Source: Roseibacillus sp. (GTDB lineage Bacteria; Verrucomicrobiota; Verrucomicrobiia; Verrucomicrobiales; Akkermansiaceae). From it: a stretch of DNA of 33,212 nucleotides. Every line of letters starts with the position of its first letter. Within the stretch, counting starts at the first letter, position 1. The notes below the pieces were generated by a model. The model was not told the origin of the DNA and ran no database searches. It worked only from the letters and a program-made list of their open reading frames with translations. Below are positions 18,513 to 27,661 of the stretch, in pieces. The DNA is taken from NCBI GenBank assembly GCA_002686085.1, contig NZAC01000047.1, positions 1 through 33,212 on the forward strand. Reading direction: 5' to 3'. The translations under genes were made by a program, and so were the position numbers.

Positions 18513-21500
18513 CTAAGGCTCCCCCCAGCCTCCTCCCCCGGGAGTCAGAATCCGGACCCGCTCGCCGGCCTCAACCGTAAAACTGCATATCTCAGGCAAT
18601 TCCTCATACGATCCGTCTCGCCGGAGTAGGGCTTGGCGCCCGGGCAATCCCGCCGCTCCTCCCTTTTTTCCCCGGGGGGCTTTTTTGCGTCTCTGAGTCA
18701 GCATTGAAACGGTCATACCCTCAAGAAACTCAAACTCTCGTTCGAGTCCACATCCCCCGCTCCATCGACCGCGACCCCCAGAGTCCTCTCTAAGAGAAAA
18801 ACTAAGCAAGCGCACAGGAAACCGGCGTTCCAGGATCTCCGGATCCGTAATCGCAGTATTGCTCATATGTACGTGTGTGCCGCTCAACCCAGACCACCCA
18901 GGCCCAGCTCCAGAACCACCTCCAATGGTTTCGTAATACGCGAAGGCCGCATTTCCAAAGAGGAAGTTATTCATTGTGCCCTGGCTGTTGGCCTGCAGAT
19001 CAAGTGCATCGAGAAGGACGTCAACAATGCGCTGACTGGTCTCCACATTCCCCCCGACGACCGCAGGGCAGGCACTCGGATCCTCAGGAAAGACGGGACT
19101 CAGAATACCCTCGGGAGTCTTGATATGGACATCGTCTAGAAGGCCTTCGTTGAGAGGAAGATGGTCCCCAACCCACGCCCTAAGCACATAGAGAACCGCA
19201 CTCCTCACGATTGCTTCTGTTGCATTGAGGTTCCCCTCATGAACTGGTCCAGATCCCGAAAAATCAACCTGCAACCCTTCCTCGGAGCATCGCAGCAGCG
19301 CTTGGATCCGCGTTCCGTCATCAAGAACATCTTCTCCCTGCCACCGGCGCCCCGTTAGAGGGAGAAGTTTAGATTTCAGCACCTTAGCAGCGTGGTGATA
19401 TAACTCAGTCATATTCCGAAGAACAACCTCGCAAGATGAGGCTCGAACTAACTCCTGCAAGGCCATGACTCCATAGTGATTACATGCGGACTGAGCAGCG
19501 AGATCCGCCATATTATCATCCAGCATTCGACTAGGGTAATGGGACGACCGAAAGAGATCTTCGATTTCCTGAAACCTGCTCCTTCCCGATTCACAGATGA
19601 GAATTGGCGAGATGACCACACCTTCTTCCTCCAGGCAGTGGGCTTCCGCGGGCATCGAGCCGGGCGCCCTTCCTCCAATCTCAGCATGGTGAGCGCGGTT
19701 CGCAACAAAACCGATTAAGCGCTCCCTGACAAAGACAGGACTAATCAAAGTCACATCGGGAAGGTGTGACCCCCCGAAGGCGGGATGATTAACCATCACT
19801 GTATCCCCATCCCTCCATTTGTGCCCCTCACTGACTTTCCTGACGCACAGGCCAATCGCTCCCAGATGAACTGGGATATGCGGAGCGTTCACAACCAGTC
19901 TTCCGTCTGCGTCAAGCAGAGCGCAGGAAAAATCGAGGCGCTCCTTGATATTCGGAGACATTGCTGTCCTGCGCAGCAGTTCACCCATCTCTTCTACGAG
20001 ACCTTCAAAACGGCAACGAAATAGCTCCAACTCTATCTCCGGGGACCACCCGACAGAGGATTGCTCTCGAATTGGATCTATCTGATCCTCACGCACTAGA
20101 CGCATCCCACCGCGCGAGCCCTTAGCCCATCTCCAGCCCGGCTCAATCACGCAGGTTCTAAAAGCATCTTGTATAACTTCTATTTTTTCCACCGTCAGGG
20201 CGGGACCAAATTCCTCTGAGGGCAGCTCCATCTCAGCGACCCCTGCTACGACTCTCAGCGCCACCAATTCAATCTCTTTCCCTGCAGGAGGATCATATCC
20301 ATAGAGTTCTCGATACTTCTCACGAAAACACCTTTCTAATTCACCATGCTCAGGCACCGCGTCCATCTCTAGGTCCAGCGTAGTATCCTGTCCCCACAAT
20401 CGCATTTCACAAAGAACCCTGTTCAGAGAGGCCCCCTCACCCAGCGAATCCAACGCCTCCTGCACCAGGTCCTCGACTCTCTCTACCCATCCTTCCCCAA
20501 TAGCGTCCAACCGAGCTAACACCTGTTGTTCTACTATTTTTTCCCTGGCACAGTGATGCAATCCCCTCGCACTCAACAATCCTGCATCGCCGGGAATGAG
20601 TATCTCTCTGATCCCGAGCTTGGCTGCCACCCCACATGCATGCTGGGGGCCGGCTCCTCCAAAAGCTACCAGACTGTAGCTCGATGGATCACAACCCTCC
20701 CTGATTGAAACTTTTCGAATCGCATCCGCCATACGCTCAATCGCTATCTCACGCAGTCCCCCAAGCAATTGTCGCTTTGGCCTTGGAGGCACGCCGTCTT
20801 TCTCCATCTTACGTTGGAGCTCATGCAACTTGGCCCTTGCTGCATCAATATCTAGCGGTATCCCTGCCCCTGTTGCATCCATCAATCCTAGCAGCAAATT
20901 CACATCCGTTACCGTTAACGGCCCTCCATTTCCATAGCACGCAGGACCCGGGTCTGCCCCCGCACTCTCCGGACCCACCGCGAGGGCCCCGGCAGACCAC
21001 TGACAAATAGAACCTCCTCCTGCGGCTACCGTCTCAATCCTTATTGACGGAGCAGCGACTCTCGCAGGCCCAATCTTTTGCTCGTAGCGCAGGACTGGAC
21101 CCCCATTAATCCGAGAAACATCGCTACTGGTGCCTCCCATATCAAACGCAATAACCTTATCGTAGCCGGCGGATCGCGCCACTTCCATGGCTCCTCGCAC
21201 CCCACCAGCTGGACCACTCAGCAGACTGTCAATTGGTCGATAATCCTTTGCGTCCTTGAGCCCGCCACCACTGGTAAGAAGTTCAAGACTTCCGCCCTCC
21301 ATTCCGCTCCTGACATTTGCCACGAACGAATCCATGACTGGAGCAAGGTAGGCGTTAGCAGTGGCCGTCTCCGCACGCGGGAGGAGTCGAACCGCCCCAG
21401 TCAGATCGGCAGAGAGAGAGACGAATGAAATTCCCGCCTCTCGCAACCAACCTCCCACTTCCTGCTCATGCGCAGGATTCGCATAGCTATTCAAAAGAGC

Positions 21501-22190
21501 GACAGCCACAACATCGACAGCATCGGCTTTCAACCTCTCGACCAGAGCCTCTCCCTCTGTTCTACTGAGGGGTTCAATGACCCGCCCGGAAGCGTCGATG
21601 CGTCCGCTTAATCCCACACAGGAGTCAAATACCGGGGCCTCAAGCTCCTGCCGCAGATCAAACAGATGTGGCCGGCGCTGGTCACCAATCCGTAAGAGGT
21701 CCTCGAATCCTGCGGTTGTAATCAGAACCCCCTTGCTTCCCTTACGCTCTAACAATGCGTTAGTCGCCCTCGTCGTGGACACCCTGAAATCGACATCTGG
21801 AAAGGGCAGCTCAAGCGGAGTAGAAGTAAGAATTCGCAAGGCAAGGATCGGAGGCTCCTCTCCGGTAAACATCTCGAGAGCATCACCCTTTACAAAATCG
21901 CTTCCTCCATGAATAGAAAGCAGCCCCCCCTTAGGATTCCAATCAGCAACCACTCCCCCACCCTCAACCTGAAAACCTCTTAGAAAATTACCTGCAAACT
22001 CATGATCTCCCGCAAGCTGGTAACAACCTCCTGCGACTACCTTCTCAACTTGCACTCTTATCACACTACTGGAGAGCACCTTGCAGCGACACTCGTCTCC
22101 ATCGGGACTGAGCGCCCAGCCGTCGGTGAACGTCCCCCCCGTATCAACGCGAACCTTCCAGGACTTCTCTGACTGGTGAGCGCTCTTCAC
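18513..22190 (-). CDS. fused HyuA-HyuB hydantoinase/5-oxoprolinase family protein
   Basis: One 1225-residue chain with both halves of the hydantoinase/oxoprolinase family. The N-terminal actin-like ATPase (HyuA) has the phosphate loop DTGGTFTD at 16-23, [10 protein letters not shown] at 348-357 and AFGGAGPQH at 509-517; the HyuB half begins near residue 718 ([20 protein letters not shown]) and runs to the glycine-rich end ([11 protein letters not shown]). The fused order is that of 5-oxoprolinase, which opens 5-oxoproline to glutamate using ATP; hydantoinases and acetone carboxylase-type enzymes share the folds. The substrate is therefore likely a cyclic amide, not proven. Cytoplasmic. The start is GTG at 22190, the only candidate before the P-loop. 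It precedes the DUF1549 gene by 71 bases. Confidence 0.9.
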
Positions 22191-23352: not shown

Positions 23353-23901
23353 CTACCCTTGGCCCTTAAGCCTCTTCAACTCCCCACGGACCATCAGCTT
23401 GCCGGCGGCACTCAGTCGATCAACGAAGAGAACGCCATTGAGATGGTCGGTTTCGTGCTGAATGACCCTCGCCAGCAACCCGTCGGTCTCGATGCGCAGT
23501 TCGCTCCCGTCCAACTGTGGAAAGATTCCATCCACCATTCCCGGTCTCTGTACCTCCGCGCGAACCTCATGGATACTCAGGCATCCCTCCTCCATGCGTT
23601 CCTTACCCCCTCCTTTTTTGAAGGTCGGGTTTATGAAAACCAGCGGCATGATTTCCGTGACAGATACTTCCTTGCCATTCACCCTGAGAAAGCTCACGCA
23701 GTCGGGATCATGGGAGACATCTACCACTGCCAGTCGAAGGTCTATCCCTACCTGAGGAGCGGCAAGACCCACCCCATTAGCGTCGTGCATGGTTTCAATC
23801 ATGTCCTCTACAAGACTCCTGATTTCATCTGTTACTTCTTTGACCTCTTTGCAACGCTTACGCAGCACTGGGTCTCCAAACTGGGTAATTGGGAGAATCA
23901 T
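23353..23901 (-). CDS. def: peptide deformylase
   Basis: Removes the formyl group from the N-terminal methionine of new proteins. It has 182 residues. The three family motifs are present: GVGLAAPQ at 43-50, EGCLS at 105-109 with metal ligand Cys107, and HETDH at 149-153 with His149, Glu150 and His153. The residue after CLSI is His (SIHEV) where Pro is common, a minor variation. Its ATG overlaps the exbD stop by 4 bases, making def the last gene of the rsmA-tonB-exbB-exbD-def run. In most bacteria def is next to fmt; here fmt is absent, so control of def is tied to the envelope genes. Confidence 0.95.
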   Translation of the reverse strand: MILPITQFGDPVLRKRCKEVKEVTDEIRSLVEDMIETMHDANGVGLAAPQVGIDLRLAVVDVSHDPDCVSFLRVNGKEVSVTEIMPLVFINPTFKKGGGKERMEEGCLSIHEVRAEVQRPGMVDGIFPQLDGSELRIETDGLLARVIQHETDHLNGVLFVDRLSAAGKLMVRGELKRLKGQG

Positions 23902-24377
23902 GGCTGAAGCGGATCTACAAAGTCAACAGGCTGAGGGCGACGAATACGGGCGGGAACATCCTTGATGTCATACTCTGCTGCAGTCAGGGCGTCCAGCACC
24001 ATGAAAAGCTGTGAGAGAGTCGCTGCCTCATCTGCCGCGAGCTCCAGCTTCCGAAGAGGATTTTCCTCACGAAACACAATTAGCGCATCGGATAGAAGAT
24101 CAGGACTCGCAAGCTCATAGTTATCAAGCGTAATTGTTCCCCCTGCTCCAACCGCGAGCACTGCCCTGCGCTCCACCACTTCGGAGGTCTCCATTTCCTT
24201 TACCACCGGAAGAGTCACCTTCACCACTGGTCTTGGTTCGGGAGGCGCCGCAGAGCTCCTTTCCTCTTCCGGAACGCCCCGGGTTACGATGAAAAAGATA
24301 AGCAGAATCGTCAGAATATCAATGAGGGGAACGATCGGAACCCGCTCCTTTCTTCGCCCTGGATGATAAAATTTCAT
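23898..24377 (-). CDS. exbD: ExbD/TolR-type proton-channel subunit (second set)
   Basis: A 159-residue inner-membrane protein with a short basic cytoplasmic start, one helix at about 14-33 carrying the essential Asp20 (VPIVPLIDILTILLIFFIVT), and a periplasmic domain ending in an ExbD-like alpha/beta part (KLELAADEAATLSQLFMVLDALTAAEY). It is closer to classical ExbD than the copy at 7319-7795. Its ATG overlaps the exbB stop by one base (TAATG) and its stop overlaps the def start by four, so the genes are translationally linked. With exbB and the TonB-like protein upstream it forms a complete energy-transduction module. Confidence 0.93.
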   Translation of the reverse strand: MKFYHPGRRKERVPIVPLIDILTILLIFFIVTRGVPEEERSSAAPPEPRPVVKVTLPVVKEMETSEVVERRAVLAVGAGGTITLDNYELASPDLLSDALIVFREENPLRKLELAADEAATLSQLFMVLDALTAAEYDIKDVPARIRRPQPVDFVDPLQP

Positions 24378-25114
24378 TACCTGCCCGAATCTGGAAATTG
24401 AGAGAGTGTCTGGCGACTGTCCATCTTTCCATCACGCCCTGCCGGTAAATCACGAGCACTTATAACCCCCCCAAGAAGCACCTCCAAGCGGGCTGCCATT
24501 GTCTCAATTTTTCTCGTGAAATAACTGTGGGCCACCACTGATGGAACCGCGACTACCATCCCCGCGATTGTGGTTCCCAGGGCCCGCGCTATCCCAGCGC
24601 CAATCTTGGCGTTGTTGGCCCCGGAAGTGAGATCCTCTGTATTCCCAAAAATGAGAACTAACCCGCTCGCTGTTCCCAGCAGGCCTAACAAAGGAGCAAC
24701 AGTAATAACCACGTCAAGAATTGGTAACCCCGCATTCATCCGGACAACCTCCTCTCTTGCACTCGCCTGCACCGCCTCCTTGGCTTCCCCTATGGGGAGA
24801 TCCTCATTCCTCATAGCGACATCGCAAAGACGCGCCAGAGAAGAATCTCCCTCTCTGAATTCAGCACGCAACCTTTCAAGCCGGTCATTTTCGTAGTGCG
24901 TCTCGATCAACTCGATGTCGCCCGCTAAACGCCCGGGCACCACCGAGGCCTTTGTGAGGGTGATCAATTTATATACAATTACCATGAGAGCCAGCACCGA
25001 GCAGAACACGATCAAGAGCATGAAAAACCCACCATCTGCAAAGAACTTCCATGTTTTCTGAAGAGCTTCTGGGGCAACTCCCGATACTGAAAATTGAGTA
25101 AACGCAGTCAACAT
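24377..25114 (-). CDS. exbB: ExbB/TolQ/MotA-type proton-channel protein (second set)
   Basis: Membrane proton-channel protein of 245 residues from the ATG at 25114. A longer form from 25171 would overlap the tonB-like gene by 56 bases and adds residues not seen in the family; the chosen start is one base past the tonB-like stop. The first helix is at about 27-52 (GGFFMLLIVFCSVLALMVIVYKL). The signature VAPLLGLLGTASGLVLIFG and the third helix LGTTIAGMVVAVPSVVAHSYF are typical of ExbB/TolQ. It should assemble as a pentamer around the ExbD dimer and power the TonB-like protein encoded just before it. Confidence 0.94.
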   Translation of the reverse strand: MLTAFTQFSVSGVAPEALQKTWKFFADGGFFMLLIVFCSVLALMVIVYKLITLTKASVVPGRLAGDIELIETHYENDRLERLRAEFREGDSSLARLCDVAMRNEDLPIGEAKEAVQASAREEVVRMNAGLPILDVVITVAPLLGLLGTASGLVLIFGNTEDLTSGANNAKIGAGIARALGTTIAGMVVAVPSVVAHSYFTRKIETMAARLEVLLGGVISARDLPAGRDGKMDSRQTLSQFPDSGR

Positions 25115-25115
25115 C

Positions 25116-26330
25116 TCAAAAGTGAAAGTTAATATGAAATTCCAGAGGCTCTCCCTCAAGTTCCTCAACAACCTCTTGCGGCATACCAGGCAACTGCGGC
25201 TGTTGGACTGCCCTCATTGTGAAACCCTTCTGCATGGCGCTCGCTTGAAATACGTCAAGGTAACGCAGCCCAGAAACCCGACCCGCCTTGTCCACATAGA
25301 ACCGGAGGGTCAGAATTCCCGGGAGAACATGATCCCTGTGCATGACACAACGCCTCTGCCACTCCGTTTCAATGATCCGGTTCACCTGTGCCTTGTATTT
25401 TCCGAGGGCCGTCGCCTCTACCTTGAGGGAGCTCTGACCTCGACGACTGATCGTCCCCTCCATCCTTGTCTTCCGCGACTCCGTATTGAACCCCTCCTGC
25501 CCTTCACTTTCCTTTAGCCGCTCCTCGGACGTCTCTCTCAACCCTTCCTCTACACCGTCATCGGCATCGCCGGTCTCTGGCCGCTCTGGATCATTCTTAT
25601 CCACCTGTTGCCGCAACTCGGATGTCTCTTCGACGGGAATCTCAACTACGTCGCGCTCTGCCGGAGGCGCGGGCGTAACATTTGCCGGGGTTGGGCTCTC
25701 GGTCTTTCCAACAACAGATCCTGAGAGTTTCTCTGGGGGATCTCCGGCACCAGCCTGACCTTCGTTCTCTCCCGGTGAGAAATCGGAGTCGGTGAGAATT
25801 CTCTCGTTTCTTTCAGCTTCTCTTCCTCCCTGAGTCGGAACTGCCGGTCCATCCACCCGGGAAGGAGCGAGCTCGCTACCCTCCTCGGTATTACGTTCAC
25901 CAATCAGAACCGCACCCTCAACAGCATGTTCACTCTCCTGTTCCCGAGATGTCTCCACAAAGCTCTTTGTCTCAGCTTCAACCAACTCCGGCAGAGACGC
26001 GTCCTCAGCCGCTCGATCAAAATTTTCCGGGGCTACACTTGTCTGTCCCAGAGCCTCACGCATCGCCATCAGCTCAAGTGCGTCCAGCTCGACGAGAACC
26101 TCTCTCCCCTTATCCGCAGGAGCATTGCTAATGATTTCTTCATCCTTCTCCTCCGTGAGAATATTTATTACAGCGCCTCCCACCATCGCGCCAAATGCCA
26201 TCAGATGCAAAATCACCGCAGCGACCACCGCTATGGCGACACTCTTCTCTCTCGCTGGCCTCGGAGCGAACACGACAGCGCAATTCTCGCCCGAGTTCTC
26301 TCCTCTGGCAACTACCGAACCGCTTTCCAT
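25116..26330 (-). CDS. TonB-like energy transducer with a long acidic spacer
   Basis: A 404-residue single-helix membrane protein. The cytoplasmic N-terminus is short, the helix is at about residues 30-57 and contains a His (AVVAAVILHLMAFG, His42), a feature shared with TonB. Then comes a long acidic, Glu/Pro/Ser-rich periplasmic stretch (about 60-305), unlike the Pro/Lys spacer of enteric TonB, and a C-terminal TonB/TolA-like domain (about 308-404: ALGKYKAQVNRIIETEWQRR, LTLRFYVDKAGRVSGLRY). By analogy it transmits force from ExbBD to outer-membrane receptors or to a Tol-like envelope function; the sequence does not decide between them. The ATG at 26330 was preferred to a TTG nine bases upstream. 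It overlaps the end of the rsmA-Nudix gene by 19 bases. Confidence 0.85.
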   Translation of the reverse strand: MESGSVVARGENSGENCAVVFAPRPAREKSVAIAVVAAVILHLMAFGAMVGGAVINILTEEKDEEIISNAPADKGREVLVELDALELMAMREALGQTSVAPENFDRAAEDASLPELVEAETKSFVETSREQESEHAVEGAVLIGERNTEEGSELAPSRVDGPAVPTQGGREAERNERILTDSDFSPGENEGQAGAGDPPEKLSGSVVGKTESPTPANVTPAPPAERDVVEIPVEETSELRQQVDKNDPERPETGDADDGVEEGLRETSEERLKESEGQEGFNTESRKTRMEGTISRRGQSSLKVEATALGKYKAQVNRIIETEWQRRCVMHRDHVLPGILTLRFYVDKAGRVSGLRYLDVFQASAMQKGFTMRAVQQPQLPGMPQEVVEELEGEPLEFHINFHF

Positions 26331-27661
26331 GCCCTCCAACAGGAAATAAATCCGCTGGAAAAATCTTCAGGGCGCTTTGAAAGCCATGCACAAACCTCCC
26401 CGGGAGGCATCCATATGCCAGCCTCAACCTCGGAACAAGGGAAGCGAATTGGGTCCGTTTGACGAGCTTCGAAAAGATGCACAAACTCCCATCCTGTCTC
26501 TTTGGTGGGAGGCAGAATCGCCACGCGATTCAATTGCCCCATGTCTTGTTCGATATTCTGCTGACCAGCCTCTTCTCCGAGCTCTCTGACTGCGCAAGAT
26601 TCATAATCCTCACCAGAATTGAGGTGCCCGCTAACACTCGAGCCCCAGACCCCGGGTTGAGCATCCTTCAGCCTCGATCTTTTCTGAAGAAATACTTCAC
26701 CACGCTTATTCAGAATGAAGACATGAACGGCACGATGAAGCAGATGTTTCTCATGAACTACCGACCGTTCTTCCTGACCGACTACCTGATCTTGCCCATC
26801 GACAACGTCAAACAACTCGTCATCCCGCTGTGGAATTTTGCTCAAAGGATGTGGGTCGTAGCACCTGCAAAGCTCTACCCATTGAGCAAGATCCAGTTCC
26901 TCTGCCCGAGCAGTCTCTGCAACACCAAGATTAGCAGCTACCTCAGACCATTCTGGCTCTGCTGGCAGAGCCTTTCGAAGTTGCTTACGCCTCTGGGAAA
27001 ATCCCCGACGGATCAGTTCGTCAAAAAAGCGAGCGTCATAGACCGGGAACTCGTCGCTCCTCGGGCTGACCTCGACTACCGTTGAGTCAATAGCCGGACG
27101 CGGATAGAACACACTGGGCCCGATCGTCTTTATTGGATTACTCACCCATTCGCTCTGCATCCTGAGCGAAAGCACGCCATATTGCTTTGTACGCGGCTTC
27201 GCCACGATCCGATCGATTACCTCTCGCTGGAGCATGAGGACCGCTCGACAGATTGGAGATGGCCGCTCAAGAAAGTTTCTCAGAATTGCACCGCCTGCGG
27301 AATAGGGCAGGTTCCCAACGAGCTTTACAGGCCGCTCCTTGAACAAGGGACGCAGGTCAAACCGGGCCCCATCTGCATGCACTACCTCAACGGCTTCGTC
27401 TTTGGCAAACCGGTGTTTCAGCCAATCCGCAAGCCTTCGGTCAAACTCGATAAGAAGTAATCGGCGCACCCTGCCCGCAAGGGCCTCGCTCAACGAGCCC
27501 GTGCCCGGCCCTACTTCCACCACAAAATCGTCTGGACCCGGGTCCAGCTGATCCACAATCCACCGGGCCGTATTCGGGTCAGTAAGGAAATTCTGGCCCA
27601 GTTTCTTGGAAGGAACTACCCCAGCCTGCTGAAGGGCCTCCCTGACATCATGCCCGGTCAC
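26312..27661 (-). CDS. rsmA: RsmA/KsgA 16S rRNA dimethyltransferase fused to a Nudix hydrolase
   Basis: A two-domain protein of 449 residues from a GTG at 27661; this start aligns with normal RsmA (VTGHDVREALQQAGVVPSKK), whereas the GTG at 27775 would add 38 unrelated residues and overlap the divergent gene. Residues 1-270 are RsmA/KsgA: LGQNFLTDPN from residue 21, the SAM loop EVGPGTG at 49-55, catalytic NLPY at 117-120 and the FYPRP region. It dimethylates two adenines near the 3' end of 16S rRNA. Residues about 280-449 are a Nudix domain of the YfcD/Idi-like type, with a complete Nudix box at 345-366 (Gly345, Glu351, Arg359-Glu360, Glu363-Glu364, Gly366). Most RsmA proteins end after the first part. 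The Nudix substrate is unknown. It heads the operon with tonB-like, exbB, exbD and def. Confidence 0.93.
   Translation of the reverse strand: MTGHDVREALQQAGVVPSKKLGQNFLTDPNTARWIVDQLDPGPDDFVVEVGPGTGSLSEALAGRVRRLLLIEFDRRLADWLKHRFAKDEAVEVVHADGARFDLRPLFKERPVKLVGNLPYSAGGAILRNFLERPSPICRAVLMLQREVIDRIVAKPRTKQYGVLSLRMQSEWVSNPIKTIGPSVFYPRPAIDSTVVEVSPRSDEFPVYDARFFDELIRRGFSQRRKQLRKALPAEPEWSEVAANLGVAETARAEELDLAQWVELCRCYDPHPLSKIPQRDDELFDVVDGQDQVVGQEERSVVHEKHLLHRAVHVFILNKRGEVFLQKRSRLKDAQPGVWGSSVSGHLNSGEDYESCAVRELGEEAGQQNIEQDMGQLNRVAILPPTKETGWEFVHLFEARQTDPIRFPCSEVEAGIWMPPGEVCAWLSKRPEDFSSGFISCWRAWKAVR

Follow-up and report, generated by a model that had tools for sequence, protein, structure and literature searches.

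The stretch of DNA analysed here, referred to as the window, comprises 33,212 nucleotides from Roseibacillus sp. (Akkermansiaceae; contig NZAC01000047.1 of assembly GCA_002686085.1) and raises the question of why the gene for a 16S rRNA dimethyltransferase, RsmA (KsgA), should continue in frame into a Nudix hydrolase, and what the second domain might do there. The relevant features of the locus are as follows:

26312-27661, minus strand: whole rsmA-nudix fusion gene, 449 residues, with a GTG start at 27661 and the stop at 26312-26314
26861-27661, minus strand: RsmA/KsgA part, residues 1-267 (methyltransferase domain and C-terminal helical domain), above cut-off for PF00398 and TIGR00755
27302-27313, minus strand: RsmA catalytic motif IV, N117-L-P-Y120, with N in 50/51 and L, P and Y in 51/51 fused sequences
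26819-26860, minus strand: inter-domain linker, residues 268-281, of lower model confidence (pLDDT 71 for block 271-280)
26315-26818, minus strand: C-terminal Nudix domain, residues 282-449, above cut-off for PF00293 and predicted alone with a pLDDT of 92.8
26561-26629, minus strand: Nudix box, residues 345-367, with G345, E351, R359, E360, E363 and E364 invariant (51/51)

The minus-strand frame is open throughout from 27661 to 26312, and in alignments its GTG falls at the start position of relatives. In Pfam the RrnaAD model covers residues 19-266, with 178.9 bits (cut-off 24), and the NUDIX model residues 308-425, with 64.2 bits (cut-off 21.1), confirming the initial annotation of this DNA, which had described RsmA and a complete Nudix domain in one uninterrupted frame. 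The case it had named against itself, a sequencing error that removed a stop between the domains, is excluded, as is an assembly error, because the same fusion recurs in a single frame in well over 100 independent assemblies. An AlphaFold2 model of the full protein (pLDDT 92.8, pTM 0.89) suggests that each domain sits in a defined position with respect to the other.

In order to establish how far the fusion extends we used several collections. A genome-collection scan returned 14 full-length relatives with identities of 49-97%, from Roseibacillus, Persicirhabdus and other Verrucomicrobia. Within a sample of the order comprising 142 genomes from six families and 39 genera, about 136 contain a single frame that covers nearly the whole query; the exceptions include two genomes matched piecewise, each over two contigs (G132, G134), two with small fragments (G055, G105) and one with no match (G076). 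Across the phylum, three additional families, f10, f11 and f15, all of the same class, have the fusion, and there is none among the matches listed from other classes. All 66 translated fused loci are single-frame. The named loci with the fused form derive from Roseibacillus, Persicirhabdus and uncultured Verrucomicrobiales. In the sixth of the exceptions (G097:C450:5515-6687) the reading frame of the fusion is intact, but about 30 residues are gone inside the RsmA half (query 131-162). As to how widely the combination occurs, which a domain-architecture search had been proposed to show, the sequence matches within the phylum reveal a fusion that is near-universal in the order and present in three further families, with separate genes in others.

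It had also been claimed that no function is described for this combination, and this stands: the literature that we searched, which subscription papers mostly lay outside, contains no functional description of an RsmA/KsgA-Nudix fusion, and what it gave was an uncommented annotation. The portion of PMC3861447 around its Table 1 lists, as protein 34, an Akkermansia-like dimethyladenosine transferase of 450 residues with domains 'ksgA, NUDIX hydrolase', that is, a protein of the same length and with the same two domains in a relative, entered there in a table with neither discussion nor test. The main text of the V. spinosum essential-genome paper mentions none of rsmA, ksgA or Nudix. The architecture is thus visible in annotation and unstudied within the literature searched. 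A loosely similar pairing exists in E. coli, where the ksgA-apaGH operon groups the RsmA gene with that for ApaH, an Np4A hydrolase; there too RsmA is associated with a nucleotide hydrolase, but the genes are separate and the ApaH fold is unrelated.

The RsmA half is complete. The fusion protein passes the TIGR00755 ksgA equivalog cut-off of 171 with 221.9 bits, and a profile search of the 3.95-Mb genome finds no second RsmA above cut-off, leaving the fused copy as the sole one. The SAM-binding GxGxG, the NLPY motif and the C-terminal RRK block are all present; over the 51 fused sequences G51, G53, L118, P119, Y120, R224, R225 and K226 are invariant and N117 is found in 50. The model of this half matches B. 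subtilis KsgA (6ift) with Z 30.8 and an rmsd of 2.3 over 270 aligned residues. In comparison with the known 16S rRNA adenine(1518/1519)-N6-dimethyltransferase it is therefore of full length, with all catalytic motifs and the same fold, and what distinguishes the fusion from an ordinary RsmA of about 270 residues is the added C-terminal Nudix domain. The 16S 3' end, which holds the target sequence of RsmA, is intact in seven fused relatives; the pattern is absent from the window's own assembly, where it was probably not assembled.

The Nudix half is complete as well. Its box, G345-HLNSG-E351-DYESCAV-R359-E360-L-G-E363-E364-AGQ, agrees in all but its last position with the consensus GX5EX7REUXEEXGU, and the full catalytic box that had been noted at the outset is borne out by the presence of all six key residues in 51/51 fused relatives. 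The last (hydrophobic) position is Gln in the window protein and 3 others and Ile, Val or Leu in the other 47. Outside the box H303, H309, R310, H313, K332, D333, W339 and E392 are likewise invariant over the 51 fused sequences. The closest folds to the domain, modelled alone, are YfcD (2fkb; Z 23.7, rmsd 1.6, 159 aligned), DR0079 (2o5f; Z 22.5, rmsd 2.0, 159 aligned) and IDI-I (1hx3; Z 21.4, rmsd 1.8, 162 aligned), followed by other Nudix structures with Z of 18 or less, so that the YfcD/Idi-like kinship put forward earlier also holds. The match to YfcD of E. coli and DR_0079 of D. radiodurans extends over nearly the whole domain and both have a complete or nearly complete Nudix box, but the identity is merely 23-26%, and the fused domain has in addition conserved HRAVH, KD..pg.WdSS and tgwE blocks as well as the attached RsmA.

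Assignment to a named family is a different matter. The Nudix half scores below the YfcD equivalog (PRK15393; 60.8 against 152 bits) and below both profiles for type I IPP isomerase (TIGR02150, 56.2 against 105.8; PRK03759, 77.8 against 127), and equivalog cut-offs are also unreached by one separate Nudix relative and by one distant fused one. With the domain below all equivalog cut-offs, the sequence does not reveal the substrate. The top NCBIfam match is IDI at 77.8 bits, which is below cut-off. With type I IDI the domain shares the fold and a Glu equivalent to E116 (E392, invariant in the 51 fused sequences), but it has the canonical RExxEE box and lacks the catalytic Cys67; the aligned residue, 344, is Ala in 41, Ser in 9 and Gly in 1 of these sequences. 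Membership in the IPP isomerases is rejected on the basis of these scores and this position. The four other Nudix genes of the genome resemble RppH, MutT (two) and NudE/AdpP, and none is like the fused domain. A role as an RppH-type RNA 5'-pyrophosphohydrolase is unlikely, an RppH-like gene being found elsewhere in the genome.

More can be learned from families in which the two domains are not joined. In the other sampled families of the class, f7, f8, f9, f12, f13, f14, f16 and f17, RsmA and the same type of Nudix are encoded by separate genes, usually distant from one another (1.47 and 3.90 Mb in G297, 0.78 and 1.39 Mb in G221), and the separate Nudix, named examples of which derive from Opitutales, Opitutus and IMCC26134, is 37-50% identical to the fused domain. 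Distant unfused relatives occur in other classes of the phylum. The refuting case that had been named, relatives with two separate genes at this very place, is excluded: the separate genes that exist belong to other families and normally sit elsewhere in the genome. Fused genomes have this Nudix in the fused copy alone, so the separate gene seems to have been replaced by the fused domain. One f13 genome (G231; L120 1148-4705) differs from the other non-fused genomes checked in having Nudix and rsmA as divergent genes with 2.3 kb between them. In G211 (L082, around 1500-2010) about 500 residues precede the separate Nudix within one long open frame, reported as 883 residues, of which 674 fall inside the locus; this may be another fusion or merely an open frame.

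Neighboring genes were considered as a source of clues. Only in Roseibacillus-type relatives is the run pgsA, der, tonB-exbB-exbD-def conserved, and in some other relatives pgsA, bcp, tonB/exbB, dppD or oxoprolinase recur singly near the fusion; because of this restricted distribution the gene context gives no function, and conserved operon partners were rejected as a guide. The neighbors of the separate Nudix gene are uninformative as well; in many f9 genomes a small divergent gene, of unknown kind (L024 4463-4936, minus strand), recurs beside it. In the window itself def, exbD, exbB and a TonB-like gene lie directly downstream of the fusion (23353-26339, minus strand), the TonB-like frame, from a TTG, overlapping the end of the fusion gene. 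Further along, at 18513-22190 on the minus strand, a frame of 1225 residues looks like the A and B parts of hydantoinase/oxoprolinase joined into a single protein, and a relative of it is near rsmA in L018 also.

In a maximum likelihood tree of the RsmA half, with no root placed, a branch with support 100/97 separates all 33 fused rows from the others, and this single clade of fused RsmA sequences is explained by one old fusion event. The tree of the Nudix domain is poorly resolved, with three label changes and long branches, and is compatible with one fusion without being proof of it. Comparison of the window gene with six Roseibacillus-type relatives gives dN/dS values of 0.07-0.11 (RsmA half) and 0.11-0.19 (Nudix half). 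Purifying selection acts on both halves, a little more loosely on the Nudix half.

We consider it likely, from these comparisons, that the product of this one old fusion is a bifunctional housekeeping protein combining 16S rRNA dimethylation with hydrolysis of small diphosphates. The N-terminal half would be the only RsmA of the cell, dimethylating the neighboring pair of adenosines in helix 45 of 16S rRNA, and the C-terminal half would be an active metal-dependent Nudix hydrolase of the YfcD/DR_0079/IDI-I neighborhood, continuing a reaction that in the unfused families of the class belongs to a stand-alone protein. We infer from sequence that both halves are active, that the most likely type of substrate for the Nudix half is a small diphosphate, and that no coupled chemistry arises from the fusion. 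The diphosphate may be a pyrimidine nucleoside di- or triphosphate, as for DR_0079, or a prenyl diphosphate (IPP or DMAPP, for example), as for plant NUDX3, which dephosphorylates these two compounds to monophosphates (PMC11062433) and which we liken to the fused domain by function only. The covalent link would hold the halves at a fixed stoichiometry and probably in a fixed orientation to each other; a new reaction would not be required. In other families the same Nudix is a gene of its own, as a rule not linked to rsmA, and for this reason its activity is probably independent of rRNA methylation; nor does it seem to need RsmA, given that a free-standing relative has the same active site. With the fusion so nearly universal, the two activities could depend on each other after all, and its retention over the sampled families allows the link to alter either of them.

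A fairly unlikely alternative, in line with the sensor role that the initial annotation had offered as one option, is that the Nudix domain senses or responds to a small diphosphate (a nucleotide, a (p)ppGpp-like compound or an isoprenoid) and adjusts RsmA activity or the release of RsmA from the 30S, so that ribosome maturation is coupled to the metabolic state. A covalent link kept over nine sampled families and the fixed arrangement of domains that is predicted with a pTM of 0.89 are what one would expect of such a device, but a pure sensor could afford to lose catalytic residues, all of which are kept in 51/51 sequences, and the relative with the same active site is free-standing and away from rsmA. 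The full conservation of catalytic residues leads us to favor an active enzyme over a pure sensor, though the domain may be both. The more far-reaching form of the idea, in which the domain binds or hydrolyses a metabolite whose level reflects nutrient or isoprenoid/nucleotide status, with RsmA on the 30S gated in this way across the entire order, is more doubtful still.

It is improbable that the fusion is neutral, a Nudix gene having landed in frame behind rsmA and staying there because re-splitting is unlikely. Such a history would fit the single origin on the RsmA tree and the fact that, whichever relative the window's gene is compared with, the Nudix half changes somewhat faster than RsmA; the strong constraint on both domains and the lack of a clear re-split pair in the sampled fused families speak against it. 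A neutral history is compatible with the bifunctional protein that we prefer, differing solely on whether the link matters.

The initial annotation had raised the possibility that the Nudix domain clears a by-product of methylation. The RsmA reaction converts SAM to SAH and produces no diphosphate, and because of this and of the free-standing Nudix with the same site away from rsmA the proposal is weakened; the probable independence of the Nudix activity from methylation argues against it as well. Removal of a product of the RsmA pathway, such as N6-methylated or N6,N6-dimethylated adenosine nucleotides from rRNA degradation, is quite improbable too, even though the human Nudix MTH1 hydrolyses N6-methyl-dATP (PMC7152754) and a house-cleaning role would explain linkage to an enzyme that makes dimethyladenosine. 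The closest folds are YfcD, DR_0079 and IDI and not MTH1, free-standing relatives are normally unlinked to rsmA, and MutT-like Nudix genes are already in the genome. Very improbable, finally, is that the Nudix half supplies a missing IPP isomerase, for despite its top match and fold (IDI-I, Z about 21), the invariant E392 and the lack of a type 2 IDI above cut-off in the genome, it remains below the IDI cut-offs, never has Cys at the C67 position, and is not required as an isomerase here because IspH, which makes both IPP and DMAPP, is present.

RsmA is among the most conserved of ribosome-maturation enzymes, and the sequences indicate that in a whole order, the gut bacterium Akkermansia included, it bears a fixed second domain that is probably catalytic. 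For annotation this means that genomes with the fusion should not be expected to hold a separate gene of this Nudix type. The fusion also offers a simple genetic test for a tie between rRNA dimethylation and small-diphosphate metabolism; were gating to prove true, an entire bacterial order would couple a universal modification of 16S rRNA to metabolism via one protein.
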